This document shows positions 7,652 to 56,802 of a stretch of DNA of 64,000 nucleotides, piece after piece. Source of the DNA: Thermoanaerobaculia bacterium (GTDB taxonomy: Bacteria; Acidobacteriota; Thermoanaerobaculia; Multivoradales; J023). The notes beneath the pieces were generated by a model, which was not told the origin of the DNA, did not search any database, and saw only the letters and a list, made by a program, of their open reading frames with translations. The position numbers and the translations under genes are program-made. Every line of letters begins with the position of its first letter. Position 1 is the first letter of the stretch. The DNA lies in NCBI GenBank assembly GCA_030431255.1, contig JAUIJL010000005.1, positions 341,313 to 405,312 on the forward strand. The letters are read 5' to 3'.

Positions 7652-7662
7652 GCGAGTCCGGC

Positions 7663-10241: not shown

Positions 10242-10910
10242 CATTTCGTCGAGATGGGCGATGAGGGCCGCACATTGCTCGGCCGCCTGGGCTCGGGCTC
10301 GGCGGTCCTCCGTGGAATCGGTGAGCGTGGTCAGCATCTCGGTGCAGGACGACCGCAGCTTCGAAGCCAAGTTGCCCAAACGCGCGGCATGCTCGGCGGC
10401 GGACTCGAGCCCTCGCTCCGCGCCTTGAAGCCGACGTTGCAGCTCGGCATTTTCGCGCCGCAGCTTAAAGCGTTCGAGCACGTCCTCGATCTTCTTCGGC
10501 AGGGATTGGATGAATTCCAAGCGGGCATCCTTCACCACATAGTCCGCCACGCCGGCTTTCATCACCTCCACCGCCAAACGCACGTCGGTGAATCCGGTCA
10601 ACATGATCACCGGTAGGGTTTCCAGCCGATTTCCGAGGACCCGGACCATTTCCGTACCGGGTTTGTCCGGCATCTTGTAGTCCAGGAGCACGAGGTCGAA
10701 AGCCTCTGAAGCGAGCCGTTGCAGCCCCGCGTCGACGCTGACCTCTCCGACGATCTCAAAGCCCGCCTTGGTGAGAATTCTTCGCACCAAGAGGATCAGC
10801 GGCCTTTCATCCTCGACGATCAGAATTTTGCCCTTGGTGACCTCCGGGTCGCCGGTTTCGGGGTCCGCAGCCTCGAGCACTGGGGCCTGGGTTGAAGCTT
10901 GTCTTTCCAT
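10221..10910 (-). CDS. Response regulator, receiver plus coiled coil
   Basis: A 229-residue protein. Residues 28-150 are a receiver domain with the acidic pair ED at 33-34, phosphoacceptor D77 in LVLLDYKMPD, the switch Thr in MLTG and a conserved Lys in VVKDA. The remaining ~80 residues are helical and coiled-coil-like, with no DNA-binding domain, so output is probably by protein contact. GGGAAGG supports the ATG at 10910. It starts 13 bases after the histidine kinase stop and is surely its operon partner. Confidence 0.92.
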   Translation of the reverse strand: MERQASTQAPVLEAADPETGDPEVTKGKILIVEDERPLILLVRRILTKAGFEIVGEVSVDAGLQRLASEAFDLVLLDYKMPDKPGTEMVRVLGNRLETLPVIMLTGFTDVRLAVEVMKAGVADYVVKDARLEFIQSLPKKIEDVLERFKLRRENAELQRRLQGAERGLESAAEHAARLGNLASKLRSSCTEMLTTLTDSTEDRRARAQAAEQCAALIAHLDEMLRDSAQ

Positions 10911-10923
10911 AGACCTTCCCGAT

Positions 10924-39232: not shown

Positions 39233-42153
39233 GGCGGGCCCCCAGCCTGGTCGGCTCCTGAGGTGTCGGCTCCTAAGGTGGCGGCTGCTGAGGTGTCGGC
39301 TGCTGAGCCCTCAGCTCCTGTGGTGCCGGCCCCGGCTTGGACCACCGCTGTGCCTCGCTCCTCCAAACGGCCGTCACCGACCCAAAGATGACGCCAGCTC
39401 TTTTGGCGCCAGCTCCGTTCCGATTGGGCCGCCCCGTCCATCAAACGTCGATAGACCGATTCTTCCTGTTTCAGCAGCTCGCGCGGTGGGCCGTCCTCCA
39501 CCACCCGCCCGCCGTCGACCACGAGCACGCGTGGAAAATCGACCGTATCGGCGACATCGTGGGTCACGCATAAAAGGGTGGTGGCGCCCCACACTCGCCG
39601 CGCCTCGGCCATCAAGCGCAGCCGAGCCCCACGGTCGAGCCCTCGAAACGGCTCGTCGAGCACCGCCAAGCGAACATCGGCCCTGCCGAAGGCGCGCCCC
39701 AGCCGAACCCGTTGGCCCTCGCCTCCGGAGACCAAGCCGCCTCCCTCGCCCAGCGGGGTGGAAAGGCCCTCGGGCAGACGCTCGATCACCGTGTCGAGGT
39801 CAGCCCGCGTCAAGGTTCGGGTCGCGGCCACCGCCCGATGGGGCTCGATGCCGTAGCGCAAATTCTCGAAGAGACTGCGATTCCACAGTTGAACCGCCGG
39901 ATCGACCCAGGCCGTCCGACGGCGCAGTCGTTCTTGCGCGGCAGCATCCAACGGCCTGCCGTCGACTCGAAGGAAACCCGCCGCCGGTTGATGCCAACCC
40001 AACAGCAAACCCACGAGGGTCGATTTGCCGGCACCGGACGGTCCTACCACCGCCACGTGCTCGCCGGCTTCCAGCTCGACCGAGACCCCGTGCAGGATGG
40101 AGTGCCCGCCGGCCACCACGGCGACGTCCGAGAGCTGCACCGATACGCCCCGCACCGACTCGCCGTGTTTCGCTCCCTGGGCCTCCGCGCCGACGAGCTC
40201 CGAGGGCGTCACTTGTTTCCGTCCGGCATCCTCAGGCACGACATCTTCCGGTGCTTCAAGGGGCTCGATCCACCTCAACAGGGTCGAGCGCAGGCCCGGA
40301 AGAACTTGGATCGCGTTGAATATCTCCGTGCCCAGATCGGGCAATCGCAACGCCCAATACACCAACAAAAGGGCCCCACCGCCGAGGCCGGAGCCCTCGA
40401 GATGGCTGACCAACAACCAGGCCGCCAAGCCGAACCCGACGGATAGCTGTAACCCTTGGCCGAAGACCGAGAGGCTGAGCACGCTTTCCGAGGCGGTCCG
40501 CCACTCCTTGAGCAACGCCTCATGCTCCCGCCGCACCGAACGCTCGGCGGCGTGAGCACGGATGACGGTCAGCCCCAACAAGCCGTCGAGATAAAAGCGG
40601 GACAGGGCTCCGGCATGGCTGCGCGCTTTGAGATCCCGTTCCGCCAAAAAGGGGTACATCATTAGGGGCACTGTCACCGCCGCCGTCGCCGCCGCCAGGG
40701 CCACGGGCCACACCGTCGGATCGAGCCAGACAATGCCCAAGGTGGTGAACAGCAGCTGTGCGCCGCCGCGACACAGACGCTCGGCGACCATCGGCACCTG
40801 ACGCAATCGATGCACTGAATGACTGCGCTCCGCCATGTCGGAAATCAGCCGACTGGCGAAATATTGATTCGGTAGACGGGTGATCTTGTCGAGGAATCGA
40901 ATTCTCAGCCGGACCTCGAGATGCCGCCCCAAGCGATAGATCCCTTGCAGCGTCGGCAACCGGAGCAGCCACAACACGGCCCCGAGACCCAACCACATGG
41001 CCACGGCCTTCCACCGCTCCGGCGGTGAGCCGAGCAAGGGACCGAGCTCGAAAATCGCTCGAAACACGAGCGCCTCCAACATCACTCCCCCGGCGGCCAC
41101 CAGGGTAGAAAAGAAGAGCAAAGCCGGAAGCCCTAAGCCGTCTTCTTTAAGGAACTTGAGCAGGCTCTTCCACGGCGAGGGAGACCCTTCTTCAAGGGCC
41201 GCGATCAGCTCTCGGGAAAGGGGTGGAGCGTCCGGCTGCGACTCGGTGACCAGCTCCCCGGTCGAGGAGCTCGCCTTCAAGATGTCTTTGGCGCCGCGGA
41301 CTCGAACGAGGACGACCCCACGCAGCAGCACGGATGCTTCGGAAGCCTCACCGTCACCCGACGGCTCCGCTTCCTCGACCGGCACCACGGACCAATAGGG
41401 CCTTGGGATCGCCTCGCCATCCCATCGGGCCTGCTCCATCAGCTCGGGCAGAAGTCGCGCACAATCTCCTTTCTGTGCTCCCCCGGCATCGAGCAGGGCT
41501 CGGCACAGGCGAACCGCCGCGTCGAGGCAAGCCAACGGTCGCCAATCGGAGTCGGCCAGCGCGGCCTCCAGCAATTCGTCGACCTGGGCCTTGGCGATCC
41601 CCAGACCGCGGAGCCGCTCTCGCAATGGCGATAGGAATTCGTCCGTGGACGCCCACTGCCGCCACGCTGCGGCCGGCACCTTGTGCTCGTGCAAGAAACA
41701 GCGATCCAAAAATCCCCGGCCGCCTTGCCAGACCCTCCCGGTTCCCGGGTCCATGATCTGCACCCATCCGGATCGGCCGGAAGCACCACCGATATGACCC
41801 CAGACGACCACGAAATGGGTATTGCCGTTCGGCAGCCGGACCACCACGATGGCCGGCAACGCCGCCGCCGACGGCACCAACAGATGGTCGAGGGGAATCA
41901 TGATCTGCTCGGCGTCGAGGCCCAGCTGCTTGGCCACCTCCTCCAAGCTGTCGATGGACGTACCGTCGACATCGGTCTGGCAGGCTTCCCGCAAACGTCC
42001 GTAGCTGACGCGAGTGCCGAAGCCTTCCAGCAGCGCTTTCAGCGAGGCCGGGCCGCAGTCCATGGCCGAGCTTTGGATCACCTCGGGCACGATCCACCGT
42101 CGCTTCGAGCGGGTCTGGGTCGTGGCGGCTCGGGTCGAGGAGGCTGAGGTCAA
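39229..42153 (-). CDS. Peptidase-containing ABC transporter (C39, PCAT type)
   Basis: A 974-residue protein starting at TTG, which overlaps the hlyD-like stop as TTGA. Residues 20-160 are a C39 peptidase with catalytic C33 (SSAMDCGPASL), H113 (NTHFVVVWG) and D135 (IMDPGTG), so it should cut leader peptides after Gly-Gly-type sites during export. An extra ~170-residue region precedes the membrane domain (about 335-600). The ATPase has Walker A GPSGAGKST (K710), VSGGEGQR, LAVLDEP and the H-loop VTHD. The C-terminus is an Ala/Gly/Thr tail made from 15-bp repeats. No precursor peptide gene is visible beside it. Confidence 0.93.
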   Translation of the reverse strand: MTSASSTRAATTQTRSKRRWIVPEVIQSSAMDCGPASLKALLEGFGTRVSYGRLREACQTDVDGTSIDSLEEVAKQLGLDAEQIMIPLDHLLVPSAAALPAIVVVRLPNGNTHFVVVWGHIGGASGRSGWVQIMDPGTGRVWQGGRGFLDRCFLHEHKVPAAAWRQWASTDEFLSPLRERLRGLGIAKAQVDELLEAALADSDWRPLACLDAAVRLCRALLDAGGAQKGDCARLLPELMEQARWDGEAIPRPYWSVVPVEEAEPSGDGEASEASVLLRGVVLVRVRGAKDILKASSSTGELVTESQPDAPPLSRELIAALEEGSPSPWKSLLKFLKEDGLGLPALLFFSTLVAAGGVMLEALVFRAIFELGPLLGSPPERWKAVAMWLGLGAVLWLLRLPTLQGIYRLGRHLEVRLRIRFLDKITRLPNQYFASRLISDMAERSHSVHRLRQVPMVAERLCRGGAQLLFTTLGIVWLDPTVWPVALAAATAAVTVPLMMYPFLAERDLKARSHAGALSRFYLDGLLGLTVIRAHAAERSVRREHEALLKEWRTASESVLSLSVFGQGLQLSVGFGLAAWLLVSHLEGSGLGGGALLLVYWALRLPDLGTEIFNAIQVLPGLRSTLLRWIEPLEAPEDVVPEDAGRKQVTPSELVGAEAQGAKHGESVRGVSVQLSDVAVVAGGHSILHGVSVELEAGEHVAVVGPSGAGKSTLVGLLLGWHQPAAGFLRVDGRPLDAAAQERLRRRTAWVDPAVQLWNRSLFENLRYGIEPHRAVAATRTLTRADLDTVIERLPEGLSTPLGEGGGLVSGGEGQRVRLGRAFGRADVRLAVLDEPFRGLDRGARLRLMAEARRVWGATTLLCVTHDVADTVDFPRVLVVDGGRVVEDGPPRELLKQEESVYRRLMDGAAQSERSWRQKSWRHLWVGDGRLEERGTAVVQAGAGTTGAEGSAADTSAAATLGADTSGADQAGGPP
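39253..39327 (-). repeat. Five 15-bp tandem units in the PCAT gene end
   Basis: Five units of the form GGCTCCTGAGGTGTC run from 39253 to 39327 with a few substitutions each. They encode the Ala-Ala-Asp-Thr-Ser-like tail of the C39 transporter. They keep the frame, so the tail probably varies in length between strains. Confidence 0.8.
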
Positions 42154-43313
42154 GGGCCCGCTGCTCCCGATTCGAAGCGCCGACCCGCCAGCCGCAACAC
42201 CAGCTCAGCCGGGGCGACCCGTTCCACCTCTACCTCCACGGTGCCCGGCAGACCGTGCTGCAACGGCGCGTCGGTTCCCGTCTCGGCGTCGGGGATCAGC
42301 TCGACGCGAATCCGGCCGCTGCCGGGCTCCGTCGCCACCTTCGAAACCGTCGCTCGAAGCCGTCCGAATTGGGTCCAGGGAAAACCGTCGAAAGCCATGC
42401 TGGCCTTTTGTCCTTCGCGGATCCGGCCGACCGCCACCGAGGGCTCGAAGTCGGCGATCACCCGGATGTCGCCGGCGGGAATCACCGCCCCCAACACGTC
42501 ACCCGCGGCCAGCACATCACCGGGTTGCACATCCACCAAGCGACCGATCTCGCCGTCCACGGGCGCCGTCACCTGATAGTGCTCGAGCTCGTGTTGCCAA
42601 TATTCGATCTGTGCTTGCGCCTCGGCGATCACCCCTTGCTCCTGGGCCAGGCTCGCCTCCAGGGCCCGAATCCGCACCTCGGCTTCCGCCATCTCCACCC
42701 CCGCCTCGCCACGGCTGCGGTCCACCGCTTGGGCATGGGCCTCCGCCGCCGGCTCCAGCTGGCTCACCTTGCCTTCGGCTCGTTCCAGCTCCGCCCGTCC
42801 GAGAATCCCCAGCTCCACCAAAGGTCTAAGCCGCTCCACCTCGGCCTCCGCGTCCCGCAAGGCGGCGATCGCCTGCTCTTGACGCGAGCGAATCTCACCG
42901 GTGGCCGAGCCCGAGGAGCTTTGGAGCTCGGCCTTGCGCCCCAGCTCTCCGCGCAGCTGGCCCTCCAGGGCCTCCAGCCGTTGTCGCGACGCCGCCAAAC
43001 GAGCTCGCTCCTGGGCCAGCTGCCCGTGCAACGCCTCGTCGTCCAGGATCACGAGGCTCTGGCCTGCCTGAACCTGATCCCCGAGCGCCACGACGACCTG
43101 CGACACTTGGCCGGACACCGAGGCCATCAACCGGTGGGGTCGTCGATCCGCCTCCAACCGGGCCGAGCCCACGGCATGCACCGCCAAGCGACCGAATGAA
43201 AACCAAACCAGCCAAAGCCCGAAGAGCGCCAGGGTTGCCCCGAGCCCCCAAAGAGTCCGCCGGCCGCTCGGGCGATCCAGCGACCGCAATGTGTGAGAAA
43301 AAGGTGTAGCCAC
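42150..43313 (-). CDS. HlyD-family periplasmic adaptor (membrane fusion protein)
   Basis: A 387-residue protein with one N-terminal membrane segment (LWGLGATLALFGLWLVWF), a lipoyl half-motif (VSGQVSQVVVALGDQVQAGQ), a long coiled coil (about 100-230), the second lipoyl half (TAPVDGEIGRL) and a beta-barrel domain. It should link the two ABC proteins to an outer membrane channel. The start is GTG at 43313 with no good ribosome site. It is the first gene of the export operon and is divergent from the kinase gene. Confidence 0.93.
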   Translation of the reverse strand: MATPFSHTLRSLDRPSGRRTLWGLGATLALFGLWLVWFSFGRLAVHAVGSARLEADRRPHRLMASVSGQVSQVVVALGDQVQAGQSLVILDDEALHGQLAQERARLAASRQRLEALEGQLRGELGRKAELQSSSGSATGEIRSRQEQAIAALRDAEAEVERLRPLVELGILGRAELERAEGKVSQLEPAAEAHAQAVDRSRGEAGVEMAEAEVRIRALEASLAQEQGVIAEAQAQIEYWQHELEHYQVTAPVDGEIGRLVDVQPGDVLAAGDVLGAVIPAGDIRVIADFEPSVAVGRIREGQKASMAFDGFPWTQFGRLRATVSKVATEPGSGRIRVELIPDAETGTDAPLQHGLPGTVEVEVERVAPAELVLRLAGRRFESGAAGP

Positions 43314-43440
43314 GGCGAGAATTTACCACGGCCGGGAAGGTCGATGGGGCCACGCCAATCTCTGCAAATCAGACCTTCAATCTTCGTCGAAAAACCACCC
43401 CGAGGGCAGGGTCATCACCCACGGTGTTTTCCTGCTAGCA

Positions 43441-43604
43441 TGAGACAGATCGACTCTCTCAGTTATTCCAGTCCAGAAGCGGCCTCCTCCAACAAATTGA
43501 AGGCCCAGCGCCGTGAGCAGCCGGCTTCGACTCGTCGAGGGACCGCTTGGAGCGGTCCCTCAGCCGCGCAGGCAAGGAGAATGATGCGCTGGAGTTTTCC
43601 ATGA
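43441..43604 (+). CDS. Possible 54-codon upstream frame coupled to the kinase
   Basis: An ATG at 43441 opens a frame whose TGA overlaps the kinase ATG as ATGA. The product would be Ser/Arg/Ala-rich with no recognisable fold. There is no ribosome site in front. The overlap could come by chance, since the kinase starts ATGATC. Listed because such coupling would matter for kinase expression. Confidence 0.2.
43538..43560 (+). promoter_or_regulatory. 10-bp hairpin in the kinase leader
   Basis: AGGGACCGCT (43538-43547) pairs perfectly with AGCGGTCCCT (43551-43560) around TGG. It lies about 40 bases before the kinase ATG. There is no T-run. It may be a regulator operator or an mRNA hairpin. The rest of the 287-base divergent region (43314-43600) shows no clear promoter; one GG/GC pair that looked like sigma-54 has the wrong spacing. 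Confidence 0.5.
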
Positions 43605-45895
43605 TCGGGATCGGGACCCAGGTCGGCCAATACGAGGTCGTCGAAAAAATCGGCGAAGGCGGAATGGGTGTGATCTATCGCGCCTGGGATAAAAAACTTC
43701 TGAGAAACGTCGCTTTTAAGGTCCTGCCGAGGGACACCTTCGTCGAAGAGCGCCACCGCAAACGCTTCCTCCGCGAGGCGCGCCTCGGCTCGGCCCTCGA
43801 GCACCCGGGAGTCGTTACGGTTTTTGATTTCATCACCCACGAAGGCTGCGACGTCCTGGTGATGGAATACGTTCAAGGGAAATCCCTTCGTGATCTGCTC
43901 AAGAATGGCCCGCTCCCGTGGCAAAGAGTCGCTCGCTACGGTCTCGGCATCGGCGCCGCAGTCCAGGCCGCCCACGAGCGAGGCATCATCCACCGAGATC
44001 TAAAACCCGAGAACATCCTCGTCACCCCGGACGGTCGGCTGAAAGTTCTCGACTTCGGGATTTCCTCACTGTCCCGGGGAAGCGAGCAGATCAAGAGGCT
44101 CACCACCCTGCCCTCCAGCGAGGATCTGGACCGTCCACTTCCCGGAACCCTGCTTTATATGTCTCCGGAGCAAACCCTCGGTGAGCCGATCGACCCCCGA
44201 TCGGACCTCTTTACCTTCGGTGTGCTGCTCTACGAGATGTTGAGCGGAAAGCAACCCTTTTTCGGAGACACGGCGCTCGCCTACCTGCACCGGCTTCACT
44301 ACGCCGACGTCGAGCCGATCGACCAGCTCTGTCCTGGAGTACCCTCCGTGCTCGTTGAGCTGGTCTCGGCTTGTTTGCAACGACAGCGCAAAGATCGCCC
44401 ACCGGACATGAGCGCGGTGCTCTCGCGATTGAACGATCTCCAAGCCCCCGAAGCCGACGCCCTCGCGCCGTTGTCGCGAACACCGAGCCCGCGGAGAATC
44501 CGGGCTCCTTTCGGGCTCACCGATTTTCCGCGGTGGAAAAAGCTCGCCGGTTTGACCCTCGGGCTTCTATTGCTCACCTCCGGAGGTCTCTTCTGGCACC
44601 AAGAGCGATCCTCCGTAGGCGTCGACGAGACCTTTGCCTCCTCTCCGACTGCATCTCCTTCGACCTCATCCACTTCGACCGCATCCCCTTTGGAGAGAGA
44701 TCGAGATCCGATTTCGACCTTCGAGCTCTACCGACAAGCCTGGAGCGATCTTCGGCGATTCGACCGCCCGGGCCGGCTCGACCGTGCCATCGAGGGCTTC
44801 GAGCGGGTGGTGGCGAGCGGCGAGATGCGGGCCGCGGCTCAAGCCGGATTAGCGCGGGCTTACTGGCGACGGTACCGCTGGAAAAGCTTTGATCCCCATT
44901 GGCTCGAACGGGCGACCGCGGTTGCTGAACGCGCCGTGGAGCTCAACGGAGATCTCGCAGAAGCGCGAATCAGCCTGGGGTTGGTGGAGCTGGAAAAAGG
45001 CCATCACGCAGCGGCCGAAGAGCAGCTCCAGCACGCATTACGGCTGGATCCGGAGAATAGCGAAGCCCACTTCGCCCTGGCGCGGATGCACATCACCCTC
45101 GGCGATGACGAGGCCGCTCAAAAAGCCTTCAAAGCATCCTTCGCAGCCGGCAAAAACGACCGCGAGCTGCACGATCTCTGGGGAAGCCTTCACTACCGAC
45201 GGGGCCGGTACCCAGAAGCCGCGCTCGCTTTCGAGAAAAGCATCGAGCATGCCCCCGACAGCACGGTAGGTTATCGCAACCTGGCCGCCGTCTTTTTCAA
45301 GTTGGAACGCTTCGGTGAGTCCGCCGCCGAGCTGCAGAAGGCCCTGGCCATTGAGCCGTCCCCAGACTTATACGCCAACCTTGGAACCCTCTACTACTAT
45401 CAGGGTCTCTATGCCGAGTCCGCCGAAGCCTTGGAGAAGGCCCTTCATCTTCCAGGTGGCACTCATCGCTACATCAATTGGGGCAACTTCGCCGATGCCT
45501 GTCGACAAGTCCCGGGACGAGAAGACGAAGCGAAAGACGCCTATTTGCGAGCCTTGCAAATGCTCGACGAGATACTTCGGGACGGCGGGGCTCTGAACGC
45601 CGCTCAGCGCAGCCGCAGGAGCCTGTACCGCGCGCGAAGCGGTGATACCGAGGGAGCCCTCGCGGATCTCAATGGGCTAGAAGATGCCGACTGGGAGCAA
45701 CCCGACATTCTCTACCGAGCGGCGGTGGTCCAAGAGCTCTCCAACCACCGAGAGCTCGCCTTGAACACCCTTGCCCGAGCCCTCGAGGCGGGCTACCCCT
45801 TGGGCGAGGTCCGACGAGATCCGGACTTCATTGCGCTGCGCGACGACGTGAGCTTTCACCGGCTATTGATCGCAAGGCAGAAAGAGGCCAGATAA
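43601..45895 (+). CDS. Membrane Ser/Thr kinase with TPR domain
   Basis: A 764-residue protein. Residues 11-285 are a Hanks kinase: GEGGMGVIY loop, FKVL with K40, HRD at 131-133 (HRDLKPEN), DFG at 151-153, MSPEQ. A single membrane segment (about 315-332, LAGLTLGLLLLTSGGLF) follows a linker; the C-terminal part (about 370-760) is a run of TPR repeats such as YANLGTLYYYQGLYAESAEAL, which would be outside the cytoplasm. The ATG at 43601 gives the usual start close to the kinase fold, with GGAG upstream. It faces the FHA regulator operon, so that FHA protein is an obvious phospho-partner. Confidence 0.95.
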   Translation: MIGIGTQVGQYEVVEKIGEGGMGVIYRAWDKKLLRNVAFKVLPRDTFVEERHRKRFLREARLGSALEHPGVVTVFDFITHEGCDVLVMEYVQGKSLRDLLKNGPLPWQRVARYGLGIGAAVQAAHERGIIHRDLKPENILVTPDGRLKVLDFGISSLSRGSEQIKRLTTLPSSEDLDRPLPGTLLYMSPEQTLGEPIDPRSDLFTFGVLLYEMLSGKQPFFGDTALAYLHRLHYADVEPIDQLCPGVPSVLVELVSACLQRQRKDRPPDMSAVLSRLNDLQAPEADALAPLSRTPSPRRIRAPFGLTDFPRWKKLAGLTLGLLLLTSGGLFWHQERSSVGVDETFASSPTASPSTSSTSTASPLERDRDPISTFELYRQAWSDLRRFDRPGRLDRAIEGFERVVASGEMRAAAQAGLARAYWRRYRWKSFDPHWLERATAVAERAVELNGDLAEARISLGLVELEKGHHAAAEEQLQHALRLDPENSEAHFALARMHITLGDDEAAQKAFKASFAAGKNDRELHDLWGSLHYRRGRYPEAALAFEKSIEHAPDSTVGYRNLAAVFFKLERFGESAAELQKALAIEPSPDLYANLGTLYYYQGLYAESAEALEKALHLPGGTHRYINWGNFADACRQVPGREDEAKDAYLRALQMLDEILRDGGALNAAQRSRRSLYRARSGDTEGALADLNGLEDADWEQPDILYRAAVVQELSNHRELALNTLARALEAGYPLGEVRRDPDFIALRDDVSFHRLLIARQKEAR

Positions 45896-45915
45896 CCAAT
45901 GGAAAGGAAGATGAC

Positions 45916-46497
45916 ATGGCGAATTTCGAATGGGCTTTTGCCTTCAATTGGGAGATTCCGGGAACCCTGCTCTACCGATTCGTGGAGGTCACAGAAAACG
46001 GCTCCGACTCGATTTTGGTTGAGGGCGCGGCCCTTTCCGATGGGCGATTCTTGATCGATAAATTTGCCAAATCCAACGACACCTTCCGATTCCAGATCTA
46101 TGAGTGGACCACGAAGGACACCGAGACTCCAGAGAGTCTCCATTCCAAACCTCAGAGCTTTACGGTCCTGACGGAGAACTTCGACCGCTACGACCTCTTC
46201 CGATCGCTGCCGAAGTTCGAGAGCGAAGCCTTTTACGACACCGCTCAGCTGGTCAGCGGAACCAGCCCTTTCGAAGGCCTGACGAATCTCTACAAGTGGA
46301 TCAAGGATCCTTTCGACCAACAAACTCACATGATCGCCCAGCTTTCGGAGCAGCAAATCTTCAGGATCCGGGCCAGAATCGTGGTCCCCTCACTTCCCGA
46401 AGAGGCGTCCCAGGGTCGAAAGGCCCGAATGTACTTCTTCGATCCGGAGATGGTGGTCGGCGACGACGGCGGAGAACCCATTCCTCCCGATAGCTGA
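45916..46497 (+). CDS. Unknown protein, partner gene of the kinase
   Basis: A 193-residue protein 20 bases after the kinase, with a good ribosome site (GGAAAGGAAG). It has no signal peptide and no membrane segment. It is rich in Phe, Tyr and Trp and in alternating strands (FEWAFAFNWEIPG, TFRFQIYEW, FRIRARIVV) and ends with MYFFDPEMVVG and an acidic tail. No family recognised. It is probably cytoplasmic and beta-rich. Its position suggests it is a target or regulator of the kinase, or a fourth member of the protein set encoded on the other strand. Confidence 0.75.
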   Translation: MANFEWAFAFNWEIPGTLLYRFVEVTENGSDSILVEGAALSDGRFLIDKFAKSNDTFRFQIYEWTTKDTETPESLHSKPQSFTVLTENFDRYDLFRSLPKFESEAFYDTAQLVSGTSPFEGLTNLYKWIKDPFDQQTHMIAQLSEQQIFRIRARIVVPSLPEEASQGRKARMYFFDPEMVVGDDGGEPIPPDS

Positions 46498-46499
46498 GC

Positions 46500-48140
46500 T
46501 CAACGCAATCCAAGGGCTTGCATACGACGTTTGAGCCCTTGTTTCGAGACTTCCAGCTCGGCGGCCATGGCGACGATATTGCCGTCGTGGCGCTGGGCGG
46601 AGGCCTCGATCTCCGGCTCTTCCAGGTCCGCGGCTTTGCGCACCCCCGGGCAACGGTCGACCAAACCGTAGAGGGAAGTCCGAGAAATACCGAGGGCTTC
46701 GGCCGTGGGTTTTATATCGAAGCTGTGGGCCCGGAGAGCCCGTAAAAGCTCTTCGTCGTCGATTTTGCTCGGATCCTGGTAGCTGCCGGCCGGAGCGCGA
46801 CGCCGTCGCTCCGTTTCTCCGGCGCCTTCGTGGGAAGCGCCGACGGCCCCCGGCGCGGCCTGCAAGCCGAGCATCTCCACCAACCAATCCACCGGCTTTA
46901 ACGTCGGCTCTTGCCTTTGGCCCACCACCAGCCGACTCACGACGTTCTTCAGCTGCCGCACATTGCCGGGCCAATCATAGGCCGCGAGGGCCGCCACCAA
47001 CGCGGCGGACACCCAAGGCGTGCCAAAGGGGCCGAAGCTCTCCAGCTTCTTCGATTCACCGAGAGCTTCCAATTCGAGAGCCAGGAAGTGGAAGAAAAGT
47101 CGACCGATATCCGCACGTCGCTCGCGCAGCAAGGGAAGACGGATTTCATAGCTGCTCAGGCGATGTAGCAGAGGCGCTCGAAAGCGCCCCTCCGCGATCG
47201 CCGTCTCGAGATCGGCATCGGTGGCGGCGATCACCCGCACCCGGACCCGACGCGGGGTCTCACTGCCCAAGGGTTGGATCTCGCCGCTCTCGAGAACCCT
47301 TAGGAGAAGCCCCTGCACCTCGACGGGCAGCTCTCCGATCTCGTCGAGGAAGAGCGTGCCGCCGTCGGCCCGCTGGAAATACCCGGGTTGGGCTTGGCGA
47401 GCCCCGCTGTGGGCACCGCGAGCCGCGCCGAAGAGCTCGGCCGCCGCCAGGGTCGGCGGAATGGCCGCCATGTTGAGGCTTAAGAAAGGCCCCCCCGACG
47501 TCGGCCCATGGTGCTCGAGGGCCTTGGCGACCAGCTCCTTACCCGTTCCCGAGGCACCCCGCAGCAACACCGGCAGGGAAATGCCTTTGAGCCGTTCGAT
47601 CTCCCAACGCAAGCGCAGCATGGCTGGGCTTTCTCCCACCAACCCGAAGCTCGGAGGGCGCTCGGTCACCAACCGCAGACGGTGTAGGAGAAGCACGATC
47701 CGCCCGCCGAGCAGGAGCACCGCTCCCCGCGCCAGCTCGTCCGCAGCAAGCTCTCGACGGCCCTTGACCACCTCGCCGTTCACCTCCACCCGGGTGCGGC
47801 TTTCGCCGGTTTCGAGGATCAGGCCTCCGCCGTCTCCGGCCGAGCACAAAATCGGGTTCCGGCTCAAACGGGGATCCGCCAAGGGGCGACGCAGTCCGCC
47901 GGTCGGCTGGACGAATTCGGGATCGAGCCGCGATAGCTCCGCCACAGCCCTGGCACCGGTACCCGACGCAATGGCTAGATCCGGCCAAAGCGCCTCTTCC
48001 CCGACCCGATGCGGATCAGGGTGAGCCAGCAGCGTCAAGCCCGGAACCTCGAGCACGGGATTCTCTTCGGTCCGTTGAGTAGCGGTTCGGGTGTCGGTTT
48101 CCAAATGCCGGCGCCAAGCCTCGAAATTATCCTGAGACAT
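46500..48140 (-). CDS. FHA-domain sigma-54 activator
   Basis: A 546-residue regulator. An FHA-like domain (about 82-155, LSRNPI then VEVNGEVV and LLLGGRIVL) replaces the receiver of NtrC. The AAA+ domain has Walker A GASGTGKE (195-202), Walker B TLFLDEIGE (262-270) and a changed sigma-54 contact loop, GAHSGA (242-247) for GAFTGA. Two Fis-type helix-turn-helix units end the protein (about 455-545), where one is usual. It should sense phosphothreonine on a kinase or its target and activate sigma-54 promoters. It is the last gene of the operon that begins at 50143 behind a sigma-54 promoter, so it may control its own expression. Confidence 0.93.
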   Translation of the reverse strand: MSQDNFEAWRRHLETDTRTATQRTEENPVLEVPGLTLLAHPDPHRVGEEALWPDLAIASGTGARAVAELSRLDPEFVQPTGGLRRPLADPRLSRNPILCSAGDGGGLILETGESRTRVEVNGEVVKGRRELAADELARGAVLLLGGRIVLLLHRLRLVTERPPSFGLVGESPAMLRLRWEIERLKGISLPVLLRGASGTGKELVAKALEHHGPTSGGPFLSLNMAAIPPTLAAAELFGAARGAHSGARQAQPGYFQRADGGTLFLDEIGELPVEVQGLLLRVLESGEIQPLGSETPRRVRVRVIAATDADLETAIAEGRFRAPLLHRLSSYEIRLPLLRERRADIGRLFFHFLALELEALGESKKLESFGPFGTPWVSAALVAALAAYDWPGNVRQLKNVVSRLVVGQRQEPTLKPVDWLVEMLGLQAAPGAVGASHEGAGETERRRRAPAGSYQDPSKIDDEELLRALRAHSFDIKPTAEALGISRTSLYGLVDRCPGVRKAADLEEPEIEASAQRHDGNIVAMAAELEVSKQGLKRRMQALGLR

Positions 48141-48193
48141 GCCCGAAGCATACCACCCGGAATGGACTTACCTTCGAGCATCGAGACTGGCTC

Positions 48194-48805
48194 CTAACCC
48201 GGGCTTGCCCGGCAGAGACGGAAGGAATAGGGAACGGCAGACGCTCCCATGCCCCCGCCGGTCATCCAAACCTCGCCGCTGCGAATGCCCCAGAGGTCGA
48301 GACGGGTGGAGGACATTTGGAGATCGAAGGGTTCCAGGGGCTCACCCTCCCGTGCTCTCCTGACGGCCCCCACCCAAAGGTCGAGACCGATTTCAAAAAC
48401 GGCCTCGACACCGGGAGCGAGCCGGCGCACGGGAATAACGGGCCGGCCGTCCCGGGTCAAAAGGCAACCGATGGCCGACCCCTTCGTGCCGTTCGCGACG
48501 ACGATCGACGTCGCGCTCATCGCTGCTTGAGGATGCCAACGAGGTCGTTGTCCCCGCCGCTCGATGTAGGTGTACGACCTGCCGGCTCGCACCGAAATCC
48601 GCGGGCTGTAATTGCCGTAGTCATCCACGAGCCCCAGCTCCAAATCGGCCGGCACACGGAAAGGATGGCTCCAATCCACCGGACAACGCCGGATGACTTT
48701 CCAGGCGATCACCTTGCCGTGGGGATGAGCATGATCTTTGTGAAAGAACACCACATCCGGCCGACACAGATCGAAGGCTCGGTTGACGAATTGGAGATGG
48801 GTCAT
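48194..48805 (-). CDS. Unknown protein, paralogue of the 50143 gene product
   Basis: A 203-residue protein with no signal peptide or membrane segment. It matches the product of 49520-50143 along its length: HPFRVPADLELGLVDDYGN against HPFVYPLEFFVSASDAFGN, VFEIGLDLWVGAV against VFEFKPRIYIGAV, and LDLWGIRSGEVWMTGGG against IDLLGIQSADIVITGGG. The shared strands suggest a beta-sandwich. This copy is more basic (many Arg) and has three Cys; the other has none. No known family. Probably same transcript as its neighbours; 53 bases before the FHA regulator. Confidence 0.8.
   Translation of the reverse strand: MTHLQFVNRAFDLCRPDVVFFHKDHAHPHGKVIAWKVIRRCPVDWSHPFRVPADLELGLVDDYGNYSPRISVRAGRSYTYIERRGQRPRWHPQAAMSATSIVVANGTKGSAIGCLLTRDGRPVIPVRRLAPGVEAVFEIGLDLWVGAVRRAREGEPLEPFDLQMSSTRLDLWGIRSGEVWMTGGGMGASAVPYSFRLCRASPG
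48199..48212. repeat. REP-like palindrome at the gene end
   Basis: CCGGGCTTGCCCGG is a 6-bp-arm palindrome over the last codons of the gene above. It has the same GGGC-TT-GCCC core as at 32441 and 13659. Confidence 0.45.
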
Positions 48806-48849
48806 CTTTCGAGCTTTTCACGAACAGAGGAGAGCGGCGGCTCAACCCG

Positions 48850-49374
48850 TTACTTCTTGGCCTTGGATGCGGCGGTCTTGGTCTTTGCGCGCCGCCCTTT
48901 CGATGCGTCGACCTGCGTTTCACCCTTTGGGCTCGGATCACTGTCGCCATCTCCACCGGCCGCTTGCCCGGGCGTGCCCAAGAGTGGGACCTCGAGAATG
49001 CCACCCTCAGCGTGGTGCGTTTGATCGGGGAGGCCGTATGAGATATTCACAAAGACAACGACATCCGTGGGACTCGCCGGCATGAGACGCAGCTCCAAGG
49101 GGCCCTGCACCGTGAAATCCCCACTCGGCGAGAGCGTTGTTTTTTCACCGTTCTGCACAGGCTCGAAGATATGGTTTTGAGTCGCGCCCGTTTTGCTCTT
49201 GGCGAAATCCGTCACCGTGATCGCGAGGGAAACCAATGCCTTTTGGTTGTTGTACGTCGGGACCGCCTGGATCTCCACCCCGTTGTAGGGGGGTTGAGTC
49301 CGCGGGGGTTTCACGAAGTCGCCGGATTGCCACTGATAGGAAGGTTTGGGGGGCGGGGTGGGTGAGCCGGGCAT
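48850..49374 (-). CDS. Unknown protein, middle gene of the sigma-54 operon
   Basis: A 174-residue protein between the two paralogues, with a strong ribosome site (GAGGAG). The N-terminus is Pro-rich; the centre (about 30-130) is a run of strands (VSLAITVTDF, DFTVQGPLELRLMP, VVVFVNISYG); the last 40 residues are a Lys/Ala/Gly tail (KGRRAKTKTAASKAKK) that resembles nucleic-acid-binding or disordered tails. No signal peptide and no recognised family. The basic tail is unlike anything in its neighbours. Confidence 0.75.
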   Translation of the reverse strand: MPGSPTPPPKPSYQWQSGDFVKPPRTQPPYNGVEIQAVPTYNNQKALVSLAITVTDFAKSKTGATQNHIFEPVQNGEKTTLSPSGDFTVQGPLELRLMPASPTDVVVFVNISYGLPDQTHHAEGGILEVPLLGTPGQAAGGDGDSDPSPKGETQVDASKGRRAKTKTAASKAKK

Positions 49375-49465
49375 AGGGAGCTCCTCAGGTAGACAATTGT
49401 TTTACTTAAGATTTCTTTTCGAAAGATGGACGGCAAACGATAAAATCAGAATCGATGGGATGGAC

Positions 49466-49495
49466 GTCGAGCGGCCCTGAAACGGGCCGCTCGAC
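49466..49495 (-). other. Perfect 12-bp hairpin after the first gene of the operon
   Basis: GTCGAGCGGCCC (49466-49477) pairs perfectly with GGGCCGCTCGAC (49484-49495) around TGAAAC. It lies between the first and second genes of the minus-strand operon, with no T-run on either side. Such hairpins usually protect the upstream mRNA, so the first product may be made in excess. Confidence 0.7.
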
Positions 49496-49519
49496 CACCC
49501 GTAAGCGTTAGCCTTCAGG

Positions 49520-50143
49520 CTACTGCACGTTCTGAAGAGTAAATTCAAACGGCGAGGCATTCGGCCCACCACCACCGCCCGTGATCACGATGTCGGCGCT
49601 CTGGATGCCCAAAAGATCGATCTCGGTGTTGATCTGCGAAACGATCGCGGAATTCATGATTTTGCCCTCGACCACCTCGGAAACGGCGCCGATGTAGATC
49701 CTCGGCTTGAATTCGAAGACGGCCTTTTGCTGCGGGGAGATGTTGGTCTTCGTGGCCAGCAATTTGCCGTCGCGATAGATGTTGGCCGAAATGCCGCCGT
49801 TCAGCAGATCATTTCGAACCTCCACCTCGGTGATGGCGCTCGCCGGTGTCGCGCTCAATTGGAGCACATCGCCCGACCCCGAGCGAACCATGTCGTAGGC
49901 TTGACCGTCGTAGGCCTGCATTTGGGGCGTGTGATTTCCGAAAGCGTCGCTGGCGGAAACGAAGAATTCCAGAGGATAGACGAAAGGGTGGTTGTCGCTG
50001 ATTCCGAGGTTTTGAACCACCCGCCAAGCCACCGCCAGCTCACCGAAATTCTCCGCAACGTTTTTCTGAAAAATCACATACTCGGTGTTGTTGACGTCTT
50101 GCGACTGGTTAATAAGGTTCAGCTTGATTTGGGTTAGCGGCAT
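49520..50143 (-). CDS. Unknown beta-rich protein, first gene of the sigma-54 operon
   Basis: A 207-residue protein with an excellent ribosome site (GAGGAGAGACCC) before ATG at 50143; an upstream ATG at 50251 would lie across the sigma-54 promoter and is rejected. It has no cysteine, no signal peptide and no membrane segment. It is rich in Asn, Gln, Val and aromatic residues, starts LTQIKLNLINQSQDVNN and ends with a Gly-rich turn and PFEFTL. It is a paralogue of the 48194-48805 product. I know no function. The expected strong expression (sigma-54 promoter, good ribosome site, stabilising hairpin) suggests a structural or storage-like protein. Confidence 0.85.
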   Translation of the reverse strand: MPLTQIKLNLINQSQDVNNTEYVIFQKNVAENFGELAVAWRVVQNLGISDNHPFVYPLEFFVSASDAFGNHTPQMQAYDGQAYDMVRSGSGDVLQLSATPASAITEVEVRNDLLNGGISANIYRDGKLLATKTNISPQQKAVFEFKPRIYIGAVSEVVEGKIMNSAIVSQINTEIDLLGIQSADIVITGGGGGPNASPFEFTLQNVQ

Positions 50144-50246
50144 GGGTCTCTCCTCTGCTCCTGAGTGTTTTCCAGGCGGCTTCAAAAACGTTTTCGAAGG
50201 ATCCACCTGATTGTCGGTCATGCTTCGTGACTTGCCGACCTTAGAG

Positions 50247-50262
50247 AGCAAGGGCCGTGCCA
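50247..50262 (-). promoter_or_regulatory. Consensus sigma-54 promoter of the unknown-protein operon
   Basis: On the minus strand TGGCACG (50262-50256), four bases, then TTGCT (50251-50247). This matches every fixed position of the -24/-12 consensus with exact spacing. The start point would be near 50236, about 90 bases before the ATG at 50143. The FHA-type activator is the last gene of this operon. Confidence 0.88.
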
Positions 50263-50305
50263 GGACGGAGGCCCTCTTTTCCGGGCGCTGGTAAGCCCCA
50301 GCTCG

Positions 50306-50353
50306 ATGTCTACAATGTCGGGAATGTCCAGATGGCGGATGTCGGGGGATGTC
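50306..50353. promoter_or_regulatory. Array of five GACAT repeats, probable enhancer
   Basis: ATGTC (GACAT on the minus strand) occurs at 50306, 50315, 50324, 50339 and 50349, all in one orientation, with steps of 9, 9, 15 and 10 bases. The array lies 70-120 bases upstream of the minus-strand sigma-54 start and 85-130 bases upstream of the possible plus-strand start. That is the usual place for an activator binding site, and it could serve both directions. Confidence 0.6.
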
Positions 50354-50412
50354 ACGGCGATGCTAAAGGTGGCCGGCACGTCCGCACACGGCCTGAGACG
50401 GCAACCTGAAGG

Positions 50413-50428
50413 TGGATTGCATCTTGCA
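50413..50428 (+). promoter_or_regulatory. Possible second sigma-54 promoter, divergent
   Basis: TGGATTG (50413-50419), four bases, then TTGCA (50424-50428) has correct GG-GC spacing and a perfect -12 half but only part of the -24 half (nine of twelve positions). It lies about 70 bases before the ATG at 50499 and would share the GACAT array. Confidence 0.4.
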
Positions 50429-50498
50429 GTCTTGCACCCATGAGGCTTCATTTCAGCCCCAACCGTCACATGCATCCACCAAATTAGGAGAACCGAAC

Positions 50499-51959
50499 AT
50501 GAGCAGTCAGTCGTCCTTTAGTTTTCCTCGAATCCTGCTGAGCAGTCTTCCGATCCTGTCGCTCAGCCTCGTGTCCTGCACCCAAGCCCAAATCGCCAAC
50601 TCCGGCACCTCCTGCGGACCCAACCTCACTCCCTTGGAGATCAACGAAAACACCACCGTCTGCGTGTTGGCCGCCGATTCAACCGCGAGCTCCGGACAAG
50701 ATCCGAGCCCAGCCGTCTTCACCACCGACCAATGCCCGAACGGCCTCGGCACGATCGATCCGGACACCCAGACCTGTTCCTTCGAAGGTGGGTTTAAAGG
50801 AATGAAACAATTTCCAACCGCCGGCTCCACCTACTTCACCAGCTTGCCTTACAGCAGCGGCGCTTGTTTCCTCGACGTCACCGAGGACTACCTCAAAAAA
50901 CTCCTAGGCGTCGAGACTTGCCAAAACAACAGCACCAACGGCTGCGCGGGTCTCGCGGCGGTAAATCCTGTGCTCTTCGGGTACACGGTCTTGGCTCCCG
51001 AAGCGGTCGGCCTCGGTATTCAGCGCATTGAGGTCACCGCCGGGGGCAGCGGTTATAGCCAAGCCCCGACGGTTGAGCTGGTCCGTACCACCGACGCGGG
51101 CAGCGGCGCCCAAGCTCAGGCGGTCGTCCAAGGGGGAAAGGTCACCGAGGTGAAGATTCTCAATCCGGGTGAAAACTATCTTTTGCCGCCGATCGTTCGC
51201 TTTCAAGCCGTGGACGGAGGCAGCGGGGCCGAAGCGGAGGCCCACACCAAAAGCCTGGGCGGATGGGGCTGCACGGACTCGGGAGTCCCCCATGGCGGCA
51301 GCATCGCTCCCTATCGACCGAGCGGGGTTGCTTACAAGCTCACCGGACCGTCCGGCAACGAGGCGGTGGTGGCGGTGGTGGACCGTTGTGGCGGAACCGT
51401 GCAATTTTCTTCCAACGGTCCGGTGCACGAAAACCCGTCGAGCTGTGCCGGATTCCAGAATCAGCTCAACGGTGAGGACTGCGCGTTTTCGGATGGGCCC
51501 AACAATAGCTGTGGCTGCGGTGACTCCAATCTCTCATTCCAACACCCCGAGGATTGGAATCTATGGACCCCCTGGGCCCCCGGCTTCGGCACCGCTCCAC
51601 CCCTCTATCCGACTCTGACCCCCAAATGCGATTCCAATCAATGCGTCGATTGGTGTGCCGGTAACAACCACCCCCATTTCGACCTCGACCAGAAGACGTT
51701 CGCATTCCTATGCCCCGAAGGCGACGGCTCGTGCACCTTGAGCAAGGTAGAGCCCTTTGTCGTGCCGTCCTTGGATCCCGAAGCTGCCGGAGGTCCACTT
51801 CCACTGGTGGAGTGCGACGTCAATGCCGGGGTTCAGCAATGCTGCTCGGCCAGCGGCTGTGGCGGAAAGGTCTTATCGAACCGGGATGCCCACAATTGCA
51901 AGGTGAAGAGCCGCGGCAAAAGCTGGCACAGCGCTGCCGGAGACTGTGTGAATCTCTGA
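50499..51959 (+). CDS. Expansin/barwin-like secreted lipoprotein
   Basis: A 486-residue lipoprotein: signal peptide and lipobox LVSC with C27. Residues 175-260 contain two Gly/Ser repeats (TAGGSGYSQAPTVEL and the like). The C-terminal half is Cys-rich and shows VVAVVDRCGG and HPHFDLDQKTFAFLC, hallmarks of the double-psi beta-barrel of expansins, barwin and GH45-type proteins. It should act on cell-wall polysaccharide outside the cell, but catalytic residues cannot be assigned. AGGAG precedes the ATG at 50499. It is divergent from the sigma-54 operon and may share its enhancer. Confidence 0.8.
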   Translation: MSSQSSFSFPRILLSSLPILSLSLVSCTQAQIANSGTSCGPNLTPLEINENTTVCVLAADSTASSGQDPSPAVFTTDQCPNGLGTIDPDTQTCSFEGGFKGMKQFPTAGSTYFTSLPYSSGACFLDVTEDYLKKLLGVETCQNNSTNGCAGLAAVNPVLFGYTVLAPEAVGLGIQRIEVTAGGSGYSQAPTVELVRTTDAGSGAQAQAVVQGGKVTEVKILNPGENYLLPPIVRFQAVDGGSGAEAEAHTKSLGGWGCTDSGVPHGGSIAPYRPSGVAYKLTGPSGNEAVVAVVDRCGGTVQFSSNGPVHENPSSCAGFQNQLNGEDCAFSDGPNNSCGCGDSNLSFQHPEDWNLWTPWAPGFGTAPPLYPTLTPKCDSNQCVDWCAGNNHPHFDLDQKTFAFLCPEGDGSCTLSKVEPFVVPSLDPEAAGGPLPLVECDVNAGVQQCCSASGCGGKVLSNRDAHNCKVKSRGKSWHSAAGDCVNL

Positions 51960-51981
51960 CCCGAACGGCCCGCTCCGCGGG

Positions 51982-52638
51982 TCAACCCTCGATCAAAGCG
52001 TGGGACACGCTCAACGTGGCGATATACAGCAACATCACGGCCGCAGCCGCGGCCGTGCGCAAGAGGATCGATCGGCTCTCGGTGAGCCGGAACGCCCACC
52101 ACGCGGAAGCCCCGAGGATCGCCTCGGGAATCAGCACGTAGAGGGCAACGGGCCCCCATGCCTTGACGCCCACGGGATGCCACACGGGAATGAGGGTTAG
52201 GGTCGCCTCGGCGATGCCGAAGATCAGCACCGACAACGCGGCGCTGCCGAGCGCCGCGGATCGGGTTCCCCATCTTTGCGCCAAATCCTCGCCGAGACCG
52301 ACGATGAGGAAGAGCGGGGTGATCCACAACAAACCCATGAAGGCGCTGACCGGCCCGAGCTTCGGGAATTGGAGGTCCGGGAATTCCAAGGTGCCGAGCA
52401 CCTCGACCAAAAACCAATCGGGAAAGATCTGCATCCACGAAAGGGGAAAGAGAAAACCCCAGATCCGAATCCAGCGGGGCTCCACGCACCGAACCGCGAA
52501 TAGCGGCAGGGCGAGGTTGTAGAGCACGCCGGCGATGAAGAACCGCCAACCCATGGGGACGGAGCTCGGCAACAGCACGAAGGCGCCGCCGGCCACCGCG
52601 TAGAGCCCATGAAAGACCCAAATCCTGGAGTCGTTCAT
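51982..52638 (-). CDS. Polytopic membrane protein of unknown function
   Basis: A 218-residue protein with about six membrane segments, beginning with the short WVFHGLYAVAGGAFVLL helix and containing many Trp and Pro (FLFPLSWMQIFPDWFLVEVLG). It resembles DUF-type bacterial membrane proteins, but I cannot name one with confidence. It is a single gene, convergent with the lipoprotein gene and divergent from the MacB-domain lipoprotein. The ribosome site is weak. Confidence 0.75.
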   Translation of the reverse strand: MNDSRIWVFHGLYAVAGGAFVLLPSSVPMGWRFFIAGVLYNLALPLFAVRCVEPRWIRIWGFLFPLSWMQIFPDWFLVEVLGTLEFPDLQFPKLGPVSAFMGLLWITPLFLIVGLGEDLAQRWGTRSAALGSAALSVLIFGIAEATLTLIPVWHPVGVKAWGPVALYVLIPEAILGASAWWAFRLTESRSILLRTAAAAAVMLLYIATLSVSHALIEG

Positions 52639-52790
52639 GGAGACACCGTCTCGATGTGAGTCACCATGCCCGGATTATAAGTGGATCTTCCGGAGCCTCG
52701 CCCAATCATTGGGGCCGAATGGGCCGGCGCCCGGGCGCGTACTCCTCCCATACCCAGCACCCAACATCCTTGTACCCACCAGGAGCAACT

Positions 52791-53237
52791 ATGGGACCCC
52801 AAAACGCCGGCCTCCCTCCCCAGACCGTCTTCGTCTTGACCATCTCCGCTTTGACCCTCGTCTTCCTGACCGCCTGCCACAAACCAGAGACCGAAACCCC
52901 TTCCTACCCCTTGGAACGACTGGAGCCGGCGGCCTCAACCACTCTCACCACCACCGAGCACTCATTCTCGGTCCAAGCCGCGATCGCCCCCCAAGGCTTC
53001 TTCGACGCCCATCCGGTCTACCTCGGACGGGGGTTCATCGAGCAGGATCATCAACCCTCCGCCACACCGTCCGTGGTGCTCAGCCACGGGTTGTGGGAAC
53101 AGCTAGGGGCCTCCCCGGGCGCGGTCGGCTCAACGGTTTTGCTCCACGGTGAGCAGCATACGATTCTAGGCATCACCGTGAAGGATCCGTCCCTGGAGGC
53201 AAAGGCCGACCTCCTGCTGCCCCTCTCCGGGAGCTGA
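52791..53237 (+). CDS. Small lipoprotein with an isolated MacB periplasmic-core fragment
   Basis: A 148-residue lipoprotein with lipobox LTAC (C29) and AGGAG before the ATG at 52791. Residues 60-135 match the MacB_PCD domain of acidobacterial FtsX/MacB permeases (GFFDAHPVYLGRGF, VVLSHGLWEQLGA, then GEQHTILGI) but none of the four membrane segments or the rest of the permease is present. It looks like a domain fragment turned into a stand-alone outer or inner membrane lipoprotein. It lies 110 bases before the ECF sigma gene and could be a substrate or sensor of that regulon. Confidence 0.78.
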   Translation: MGPQNAGLPPQTVFVLTISALTLVFLTACHKPETETPSYPLERLEPAASTTLTTTEHSFSVQAAIAPQGFFDAHPVYLGRGFIEQDHQPSATPSVVLSHGLWEQLGASPGAVGSTVLLHGEQHTILGITVKDPSLEAKADLLLPLSGS

Positions 53238-53346
53238 TAACATCGAGCTGCTCGATGACGCCACCGCTTCTGTCCGTGCCGACCGCTTTGTCGTCGGCGT
53301 TTCAGCTCCATTGCGGCTCAGCATCGACATTCAAGGGGGGATTGCC

Positions 53347-53910
53347 ATGGGGGACGTCGAGGGCGCTGCACCCGCCGACACCTCGTTCCAAAACAGCTCG
53401 TCGCGTTCGGAATTGGACGAGATCATGCCGCGGATGTACGAGGACATGCGTGCCCTGGCGGTGCATATGTTGAGCGATCAAGGTCCGGTGGTGACCCTAC
53501 AGCCCACCAGCTTGGTCCACGAGGCCTATCTGCGCTTGCTGGACCAACGCAAAGCCGACTGGCAAGACCGGCTCCATTTCTTCCGCATCGCCGCACGGGT
53601 CATGCGCCGCGTGCTCGCCGACCACTGCCGCGGCCGACTGGCGGACAAACGGGGAGGCGCGGCGGTAAGAGTCGAGATTTCCGGGCTCGACATCGGCGAC
53701 ACCCCTCGTCCCGTCGACGTGTTGGCCGTGGACCGGCTGCTCGACGAGCTGGAATCTTTCGATCCCGAGCGAGCCCGAATCGTGGAGCTGCGTTTCTTCT
53801 CCGGTTTGACCTTGGAGGAAACCGCCCAAGCCCTCGACATCTCAAAAGCGACAGTTAAACGGCATTGGACCGTGGCCAAAGCATGGTTGGCCCGCGAGCT
53901 GACCCGCTGA
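53347..53910 (+). CDS. ECF sigma factor, acidobacterial/planctomycete kinase-linked type
   Basis: A 187-residue sigma-70-family protein. Region 2 reads QPTSLVHEAYLRLLDQ and FFRIAARVMRRVLADHCR; region 4 is VELRFFSGLTLEETAQALDISKATVKRHW with a helix-turn-helix. This subfamily is normally encoded next to a Ser/Thr kinase-TPR protein, as here, 15 bases downstream. AAGGGGGG before ATG at 53347 sets the start. No anti-sigma factor is seen; control by kinase phosphorylation is the usual idea. Confidence 0.93.
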   Translation: MGDVEGAAPADTSFQNSSSRSELDEIMPRMYEDMRALAVHMLSDQGPVVTLQPTSLVHEAYLRLLDQRKADWQDRLHFFRIAARVMRRVLADHCRGRLADKRGGAAVRVEISGLDIGDTPRPVDVLAVDRLLDELESFDPERARIVELRFFSGLTLEETAQALDISKATVKRHWTVAKAWLARELTR

Positions 53911-53925
53911 GCCCCCTGAGCTGCG

Positions 53926-56802
<2,877 letters not shown>

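Follow-up and report, generated by a model that had tools for sequence, protein, structure and literature searches.

The window, as we call the whole 64,000-nucleotide stretch that was analysed, holds on its minus strand an operon of four genes, gA-gB-gC-gD, which is preceded by a sigma-54-type promoter element and, further upstream, by a short array of direct repeats. The features of the locus are as follows, in the order in which they lie along the promoter strand.

50306..50353, minus strand: candidate enhancer (UAS) of five GACAT direct repeats, from an exact 5-mer shuffle test
50247..50262, minus strand: very probable sigma-54 promoter, an exact match with TGGCACG at -24, N4 and TTGCT at -12
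49520..50143, minus strand: gA, 207 aa, first gene of the operon, predicted to be all-beta
49466..49495, minus strand: perfect hairpin of 12 pairs between gA and gB, from folding
48850..49374, minus strand: gB, 174 aa, no domain found, with relatives beside gA by tblastn
48194..48805, minus strand: gC, 203 aa, by sequence comparison a diverged paralogue of gA with an identity of about 27-28%
46500..48140, minus strand: gD, 546 aa, a sigma-54-activator homologue and last gene of the operon, from Pfam and a structural model
45916..46497, plus strand: protein of 193 aa with a C-terminal FDPEMVVGD tail (DPE-tail), convergent with gD and lying between gD and the kinase
43547..45895, plus strand: Ser/Thr protein kinase with TPR repeats, two genes beyond gD, from Pfam

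The promoter element and its operon

On its strand, the minus one, the element runs from 50262 to 50247 and reads TGGCACGGCCCTTGCT. It matches every -24/-12 position of TGGCACG-N4-TTGC(T/A), with GG at -24, GC at -12 and the fixed spacing, so that it fits TGGCACG-N4-TTGCW throughout. Since the classical consensus is given as TGGCACG-N4-TTGC(T/A) in PMC9765219, all fixed positions and the spacing are shared with the promoters described there, and the core element shows no difference from them. The first-pass annotation had placed a TGGCACG-N4-TTGCT element with all fixed positions on this strand, about 90 bases before a gene with a strong ribosome site, and had expected the 5' end of the transcript near 50236. 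Sequence, strand and coordinates are borne out, and the start site computed from the GC of the -12 box (50249-50248) falls at 50236. The gA ATG at 50143 lies 103 bases from the end of the promoter site and ~93 from this predicted +1, and is preceded by GAGGAGAG. A second in-frame gA ATG is present at 50221, and the starts of gA relatives align with about 50143.

The element at 50262-50247 is the single exact match to TGGCACGN4TTGCW in the 64 kb window. Allowing up to two mismatches gave nine matches against a shuffle mean of 8.98, indicating that weak matches carry no weight and that the perfect match alone stands out. A scan of the genome (10,192,622 bases) for the exact pattern gave 11 sites, and the reversed-letter control gave 2, which corresponds to ~0.013 chance matches per 64 kb and to about two of the 11 exact sites expected by chance; the relaxed pattern TGGCAYRN4TTGCW occurs 22 times against 3. 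By the calls of a crude, purpose-made gene finder, from which all in-gene and intergenic counts derive, every one of the 11 exact sites lies outside called genes (which cover 91.5% of the window), and nine have a correctly oriented called gene within 400 nt, the two exceptions being L004 (no gene called) and L010 (819 nt). The genome contains one match to PF04552, the rpoN family (E 5.9e-67). Because of the exact match, the enrichment of 11 against 2, the location outside genes and the single rpoN, 50262-50247 is very probably a sigma-54 promoter, confirmed as far as sequence allows.

The element could also be a chance match in this GC-rich genome, given that the reversed-pattern control predicts about two such sites among the 11 and that the same 16-mer also lies at C45, 819 nt from the nearest called gene. 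Against this stand the position of the element, the repeat array, the operon and the family context described below, and we regard coincidence as very improbable, much as the first-pass annotation had argued before the genome enrichment, the rpoN match, the repeats and the family were brought to bear on it. Taken together, the genome enrichment, the position, rpoN, the repeats at enhancer distance and the family context give good support to a sigma-54 promoter of the operon.

How far transcription from this promoter would extend depends in part on the hairpin at 49466-49495. The promoter could serve mainly gA, with the hairpin limiting read-through and gD having a promoter of its own, so that there would be no true autoregulation. 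The 12 pairs of the hairpin and the folding of the gA-gB gap (z -2.53) point in this direction, as does the finding that family activators more often lie beside than behind a sigma-54-driven gene (see below), whereas the hairpin has no T-run directly behind it, the gaps between gB and gC (44 nt) and between gC and gD (53 nt) fit a single transcript, and a sigma-70-type scan of 45800-52700 returned one site, on the plus strand. We consider a promoter serving mainly gA rather unlikely and prefer a promoter of the whole operon, in which the hairpin is a possible attenuator and may cut or limit transcription before it reaches gD. A search of Rfam gave no family at the gathering score in 43000-53000.

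Repeat arrays and the activator family

Five exact copies of ATGTC lie on the plus strand at 50306-50310, 50315-50319, 50324-50328, 50339-50343 and 50349-50353, which on the promoter strand are GACAT repeats that start 91, 81, 66, 57 and 48 bases upstream of where the -24 box begins. Such a distance of 48-91 bases upstream is usual for an activator binding site. In 20,000 dinucleotide shuffles, a 5-mer present in five exact copies within 90 nt came up just once, and an earlier 6-mer repeat test that allowed one mismatch gave p 0.030 for the window; because the exact 5-mer test was designed after the arrays had been seen, its p-values are descriptive. The array, which the first-pass annotation had overlooked, is likely an enhancer and a candidate docking site for an activator.

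The operon's own candidate activator is gD, and the claim that the operon ends in a sigma-54 activator gene agrees with the Sigma54_activat domain of this last gene product (PF00158, E 5e-54), in which the Walker motifs GASGTGKE and LFLDEIGEL are kept. A fold search with the AAA+ part of the gD model matched the AAA+ domain of FleQ (5exp; Z 27.1, rmsd 2.0, 249 aligned). The DNA-binding region matches HTH_8 in two stretches, and the model places three-helix units at 462-496 and 508-542. If each subunit does carry two such units, this arrangement would suit direct repeats spaced one turn apart.

gD has 69 matches in its own genome, mostly over the AAA+ domain alone. At a cutoff of E<=1e-90 the full-length subfamily has at least 17 members here, the window included, and thus at least 16 further paralogues, and members were found in 18 of the 59 genomes searched, its own included, with up to 24 candidates scored per genome. 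The family set comprises 70 other loci, of which 53 are in relatives and 17 in this genome (L097 being weaker); G032:C1026, G032:C177, G067:C1109 and G067:C180 are not among them. A usable activator gene was called in 67 of the 71 loci, window included (L118, L120, L129 and L142 have no activator call), and counts of upstream neighbors use 64 loci, since three of the 67 have no called upstream neighbor. Set A1 consists of the window and 38 of the 47 usable long members, and set A3 of 15 of the 26 domain sequences.

Sigma-54 sites are frequent around these activators. Using a cutoff of 14.8 of 17.5 for a good site, a scan of 777 kb around the 67 activators (with a 24 kb slice in the case of the window) gave 69 sites, 60 of them intergenic, compared with 17 sites when the sequence was reversed. 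Where the upstream neighbor is divergent, a good site points from the activator into the neighbor in 16 of 33 regions, compared with 2 of 31 regions for codirectional neighbors and 1 of 64 for reversed controls on either strand. The contrast between 16/33 and 1/64 indicates that family members often lie beside a sigma-54-driven neighbor gene; the gD relative with the best E value (57%, in G025), for example, has TGGCACGACGGTTGCT facing its neighbor. Sites facing the activator itself were found at L110, L124 and L134, and sites facing the gene just before the activator at L127 (where a gap of 573 nt precedes the activator) and L141. With 16 loci of the divergent kind against the window and these five, the layout of the window, in which the activator is last in the driven operon, occurs elsewhere and is rarer than the divergent layout. 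Another locus of this genome, L093 (G000:C43:88000-102000), holds a family activator whose loop reads GAHSTA and from which a strong sigma-54 site points away.

Repeat arrays accompany part of the family. Arrays at p<=0.05 lie upstream of 9 of 22 family sites (the window, L082, L085, L087, L110, L117, L126, L134 and L136), the other 13 having no significant array, and upstream of none of the nine exact genome sites that have no family member directly alongside. In intergenic regions the excess before activators is modest (9 of 44, compared with 13 of 155 elsewhere, the latter count including the window's own array and that of L088). The L088 array (~2475-2529) consists of ATCGA repeats, mostly 10 bases apart, and precedes a kinase gene rather than an activator. 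The best repeat unit is GACAT in the window, GACAC in L110 and L134, GTCGA in L117 and L126, CGACG in L087, GACGT in L136, ATTTC in L082 (which additionally holds four GACAT and three ATGTC) and TCGTC in L085. Steps within family arrays are often 9-12 bases, as for the GACAC units on the promoter strand of L110 and L134, where a single step is of 20 bases; in L098, three copies of CGACA follow one another at 9 bases (p 0.26).

The choice of unit may be related to the first HTH. This reads IPRSSIY in L085, L088, L117, L121 and L126, and among these members GTCGA is significant in L117 and L126, occurs in three copies in L121 (p 0.66) and is replaced as best unit by TCGTC in L085. Elsewhere the first HTH reads ISRTSLY (window, L082), LARTSLY (L110) or LARSSLY (L134). 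There is thus a hint that the repeat unit follows the recognition helix, GTCGA going with IPRSSIY, and GACAT or GACAC with ISRTSLY, LARTSLY and LARSSLY. Because the loci are few and several of them are related, this correspondence is a lead rather than a test, and it makes a recognition code directly testable. Tandem half-sites upstream of sigma-54 promoters are likewise found at Nla28 targets in Myxococcus xanthus, for which PMC9765219 describes activator sites made of 8-bp half-sites in tandem, two or more and frequently 3-5 of them in each promoter fragment tested; the Nla28 unit is CT(C/G)CG(C/G)AG, whereas the unit here is GACAT and the significant units of the family vary by locus.

The promoter itself is ordinary, its regulatory surroundings are unusual and recur, and the interest lies in some 70 related activators within one order that have varied neighbor genes, many of these loci carrying a sigma-54 site and some a repeat array. 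Tandem half-sites for a sigma-54 activator (Nla28) are already known, as are FHA-type activators in Myxococcus. Searches of the open-licence literature, including PMC10482370 and PMC12316311, showed no description of the activator family, the arrays or an association with cargo.

The sigma-54 contact loop of gD and autoregulation

The loop through which gD would contact sigma-54 (residues 242-247) reads GAHSGA instead of GAFTGA, placing His at position 3, where Phe or Tyr is expected. Among 67 members, 28 have GAFTGA, 19 GAYTGA and 8 GAFTGS, and the only other with His in the loop is L093 (GAHSTA), from the same genome. We therefore file gD as an activator homologue and not as a proven activator. 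It deviates at only 5 of 98 strongly conserved family columns, and so is not obviously decaying.

In PspF, Tyr alone replaces the Phe of GAFTGA with activation kept, according to PMC2941729. Other replacements of the Phe are listed as inactive in the excerpt of PMC3162934, which names no Phe-to-His example among GAFTGA variants and in which Ser for Thr works in BkdR. TyrR, DhaR, HupR and VpsR, covered in the same excerpt, are like gD activator homologues with an altered sigma-54 loop, but gD differs from them in that its loop length is kept and its Thr-to-Ser change is of the kind accepted in BkdR (PMC3162934). An activator with GVATGV may still function, as PMC4641369 infers from a regulon prediction.

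These observations bear on a reading in which the promoter is real and gD is deaf to sigma-54, binding DNA or joining mixed rings while a paralogue with an intact loop activates. The GAHSGA loop beside kept Walker motifs would fit this, as would a gene that departs from the family at so few conserved columns, the 16 or more other full-length paralogues of the genome and the inactive Phe replacements listed in the excerpt of PMC3162934. On the other hand, L093 with its own His loop also keeps a strong sigma-54 site, so that His could work here, and regulon prediction suggests that an activator with GVATGV is still functional (PMC4641369). We give a sigma-54-deaf gD somewhat less than an even chance. 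Whichever protein acts, gD's His loop is a natural test of whether Phe or Tyr in GAFTGA is truly obligatory.

The prediction of autoregulation made in the first-pass annotation thus divides into two parts: a promoter for the operon is upheld, whereas self-activation by gD, judged on its loop sequence, is doubtful, because changes of the GAHSGA kind are reported to be inactivating, the loop of gD being predicted to fail at sigma-54 activation, and the hairpin separates gA from the rest of the operon. Hetero-oligomers of activators were reportedly described by Volz et al. in 2012, which makes a mixed ring thinkable for gD.

Possible signal input, probably acquired cargo and interpretation

The N-terminal domain of gD is one that we call FHA-like. 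A profile of 15 isolated domains hits 3gqs (E 2.5e-4), which we take to be an FHA domain structure, and more weakly the FHA protein TIFA (E 1.1-1.9). None of the 11 families that Pfam matches in gD is FHA, the 15 isolated N-terminal domains gave no FHA match either, and FHA is not among the best 25 of 62 Pfam families over 39 family members. FHA domains carry the motif SRxH, where gD has SRxP. FHA-domain activators of Myxococcus xanthus were reportedly described by Jelsbak et al. in 2005; they resemble gD in the fusion of an FHA-like domain to a sigma-54 activator, whereas gD differs from them in a domain too diverged for Pfam, in SRxP and in its two HTH units.

The kinase at 43547-45895 is a candidate input to this FHA-like domain. 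A kinase-cluster protein occurs within four genes of the activator at 43 of 67 loci, and of the 42 loci with complete 4 kb flanks, 27 have a kinase, compared with 5 of 14 control stretches. A strong linkage was considered and dropped, being weak against this local background, and for the same reason we call the link between kinase and activator suggestive. A small protein with an FDPEMVVGD-type tail is found at 14 of the 71 activator loci, and at all 12 of these where the activator was called it lies within two genes of it.

Neither gA, gB and gC nor the 193-aa tail protein matches anything in Pfam (E 0.1), NCBIfam (0.1), PADLOC (0.01) or PHROGs (0.01), and the predicted fold of gA has no PDB match at E<=0.001. 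At a Pfam cutoff of E 1, the one match of gA was to EarP (0.25), at chance level. Relatives of gA with 50-69% identity occur at 26 loci in Photobacterium, Ruegeria, Flavobacterium, Acidovorax and others, and relatives of gB and gC adjoin gA at 6 of the 26 (gB by tblastn in L012-L016 and L019). A search of 195 relatives of this genome found gA in none, and among 396 genomes of the phylum it is present in three, this one included. Because of its absence from the 195 relatives, the gA-gB-gC set was probably acquired by gene transfer. The 400 nt upstream of the gA relatives at the 26 loci contain no comparable sigma-54 site (best 14.3, L033), so there is no sign in these sequences that the promoter came with gA.

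One of the other two genomes of the phylum repeats the association. In G477, which comes from a different family within the phylum, TGGCACCTAGGTTGCT (score 15.5) is a sigma-54-like site that has no repeat array, and a gC-gA pair begins 80 nt beyond its end (locus L158, the set lying at 5959-12039). Beside the pair are a TPR-containing Ser/Thr kinase and a GAF-type activator whose GAFTGA is intact, and behind it come a protein of 916 aa and a tail-collar protein. This activator belongs to a different subfamily from gD (37% over the part that they share). In the third genome, G455, no sigma-54 site in 13 kb reached a score of 14, and neither a kinase nor an activator was recognised among the gene calls, so that two of the three gA genomes show the sigma-54, activator and kinase association. 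At L115 (3690-5801), the neighbors of a family activator are two proteins weakly similar to gA and a tail-collar protein. Alignment to gA gave an hhalign probability of 32 (E 4.9e-4) and hmmsearch E values of 0.41 and 0.47, which is suggestive of homology. In Acidovorax loci, too, tail-collar-like proteins lie behind gA.

Taken together, it is likely that a working sigma-54 promoter with +1 near 50236 drives gA-gB-gC(-gD), with an activator of the family acting on the repeats and the acquired genes as its cargo. Under this preferred reading, a hexameric activator of the FHA-like, double-HTH family would bind the GACAT repeats, loop to the polymerase and open it with ATP, and the neighboring Ser/Thr kinase would provide the trigger by signaling through the FHA-like domain. 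As cargo obtained by gene transfer, gA, gB and gC would probably have been set under a regulatory module of the lineage. The activator could be gD itself or, considered because of the His in the contact loop of gD, a paralogue acting alone or in a mixed ring. The promoter is then one instance of a family of activators, probably linked to kinases, that have variable, sigma-54-driven neighbors. A broader extrapolation, which we put forward as speculative and rather unlikely to hold in full, is that kinase-linked, double-HTH activators across the order are plug-in sockets that read locus-specific direct repeats about one helical turn apart, not palindromes, with unrelated incoming cassettes placed behind a sigma-54 promoter, and that the His-loop activator of the window may be a non-activating partner of a paralogue.

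Three further regions of the window were noted. On the minus strand, 37007-43313 encodes an HlyD-like protein and two large ABC transporters, and the transporter of 974 aa seems to have a C39 peptidase domain at its start, like bacteriocin exporters. At 53311-56802 an ECF sigma factor gene (PF07638) is followed directly by a 958 aa protein resembling a Ser/Thr kinase with repeats. Finally, ARAGORN predicts a tRNA-Sec at 7552-7651 on the minus strand, and the organism may thus make selenoproteins.
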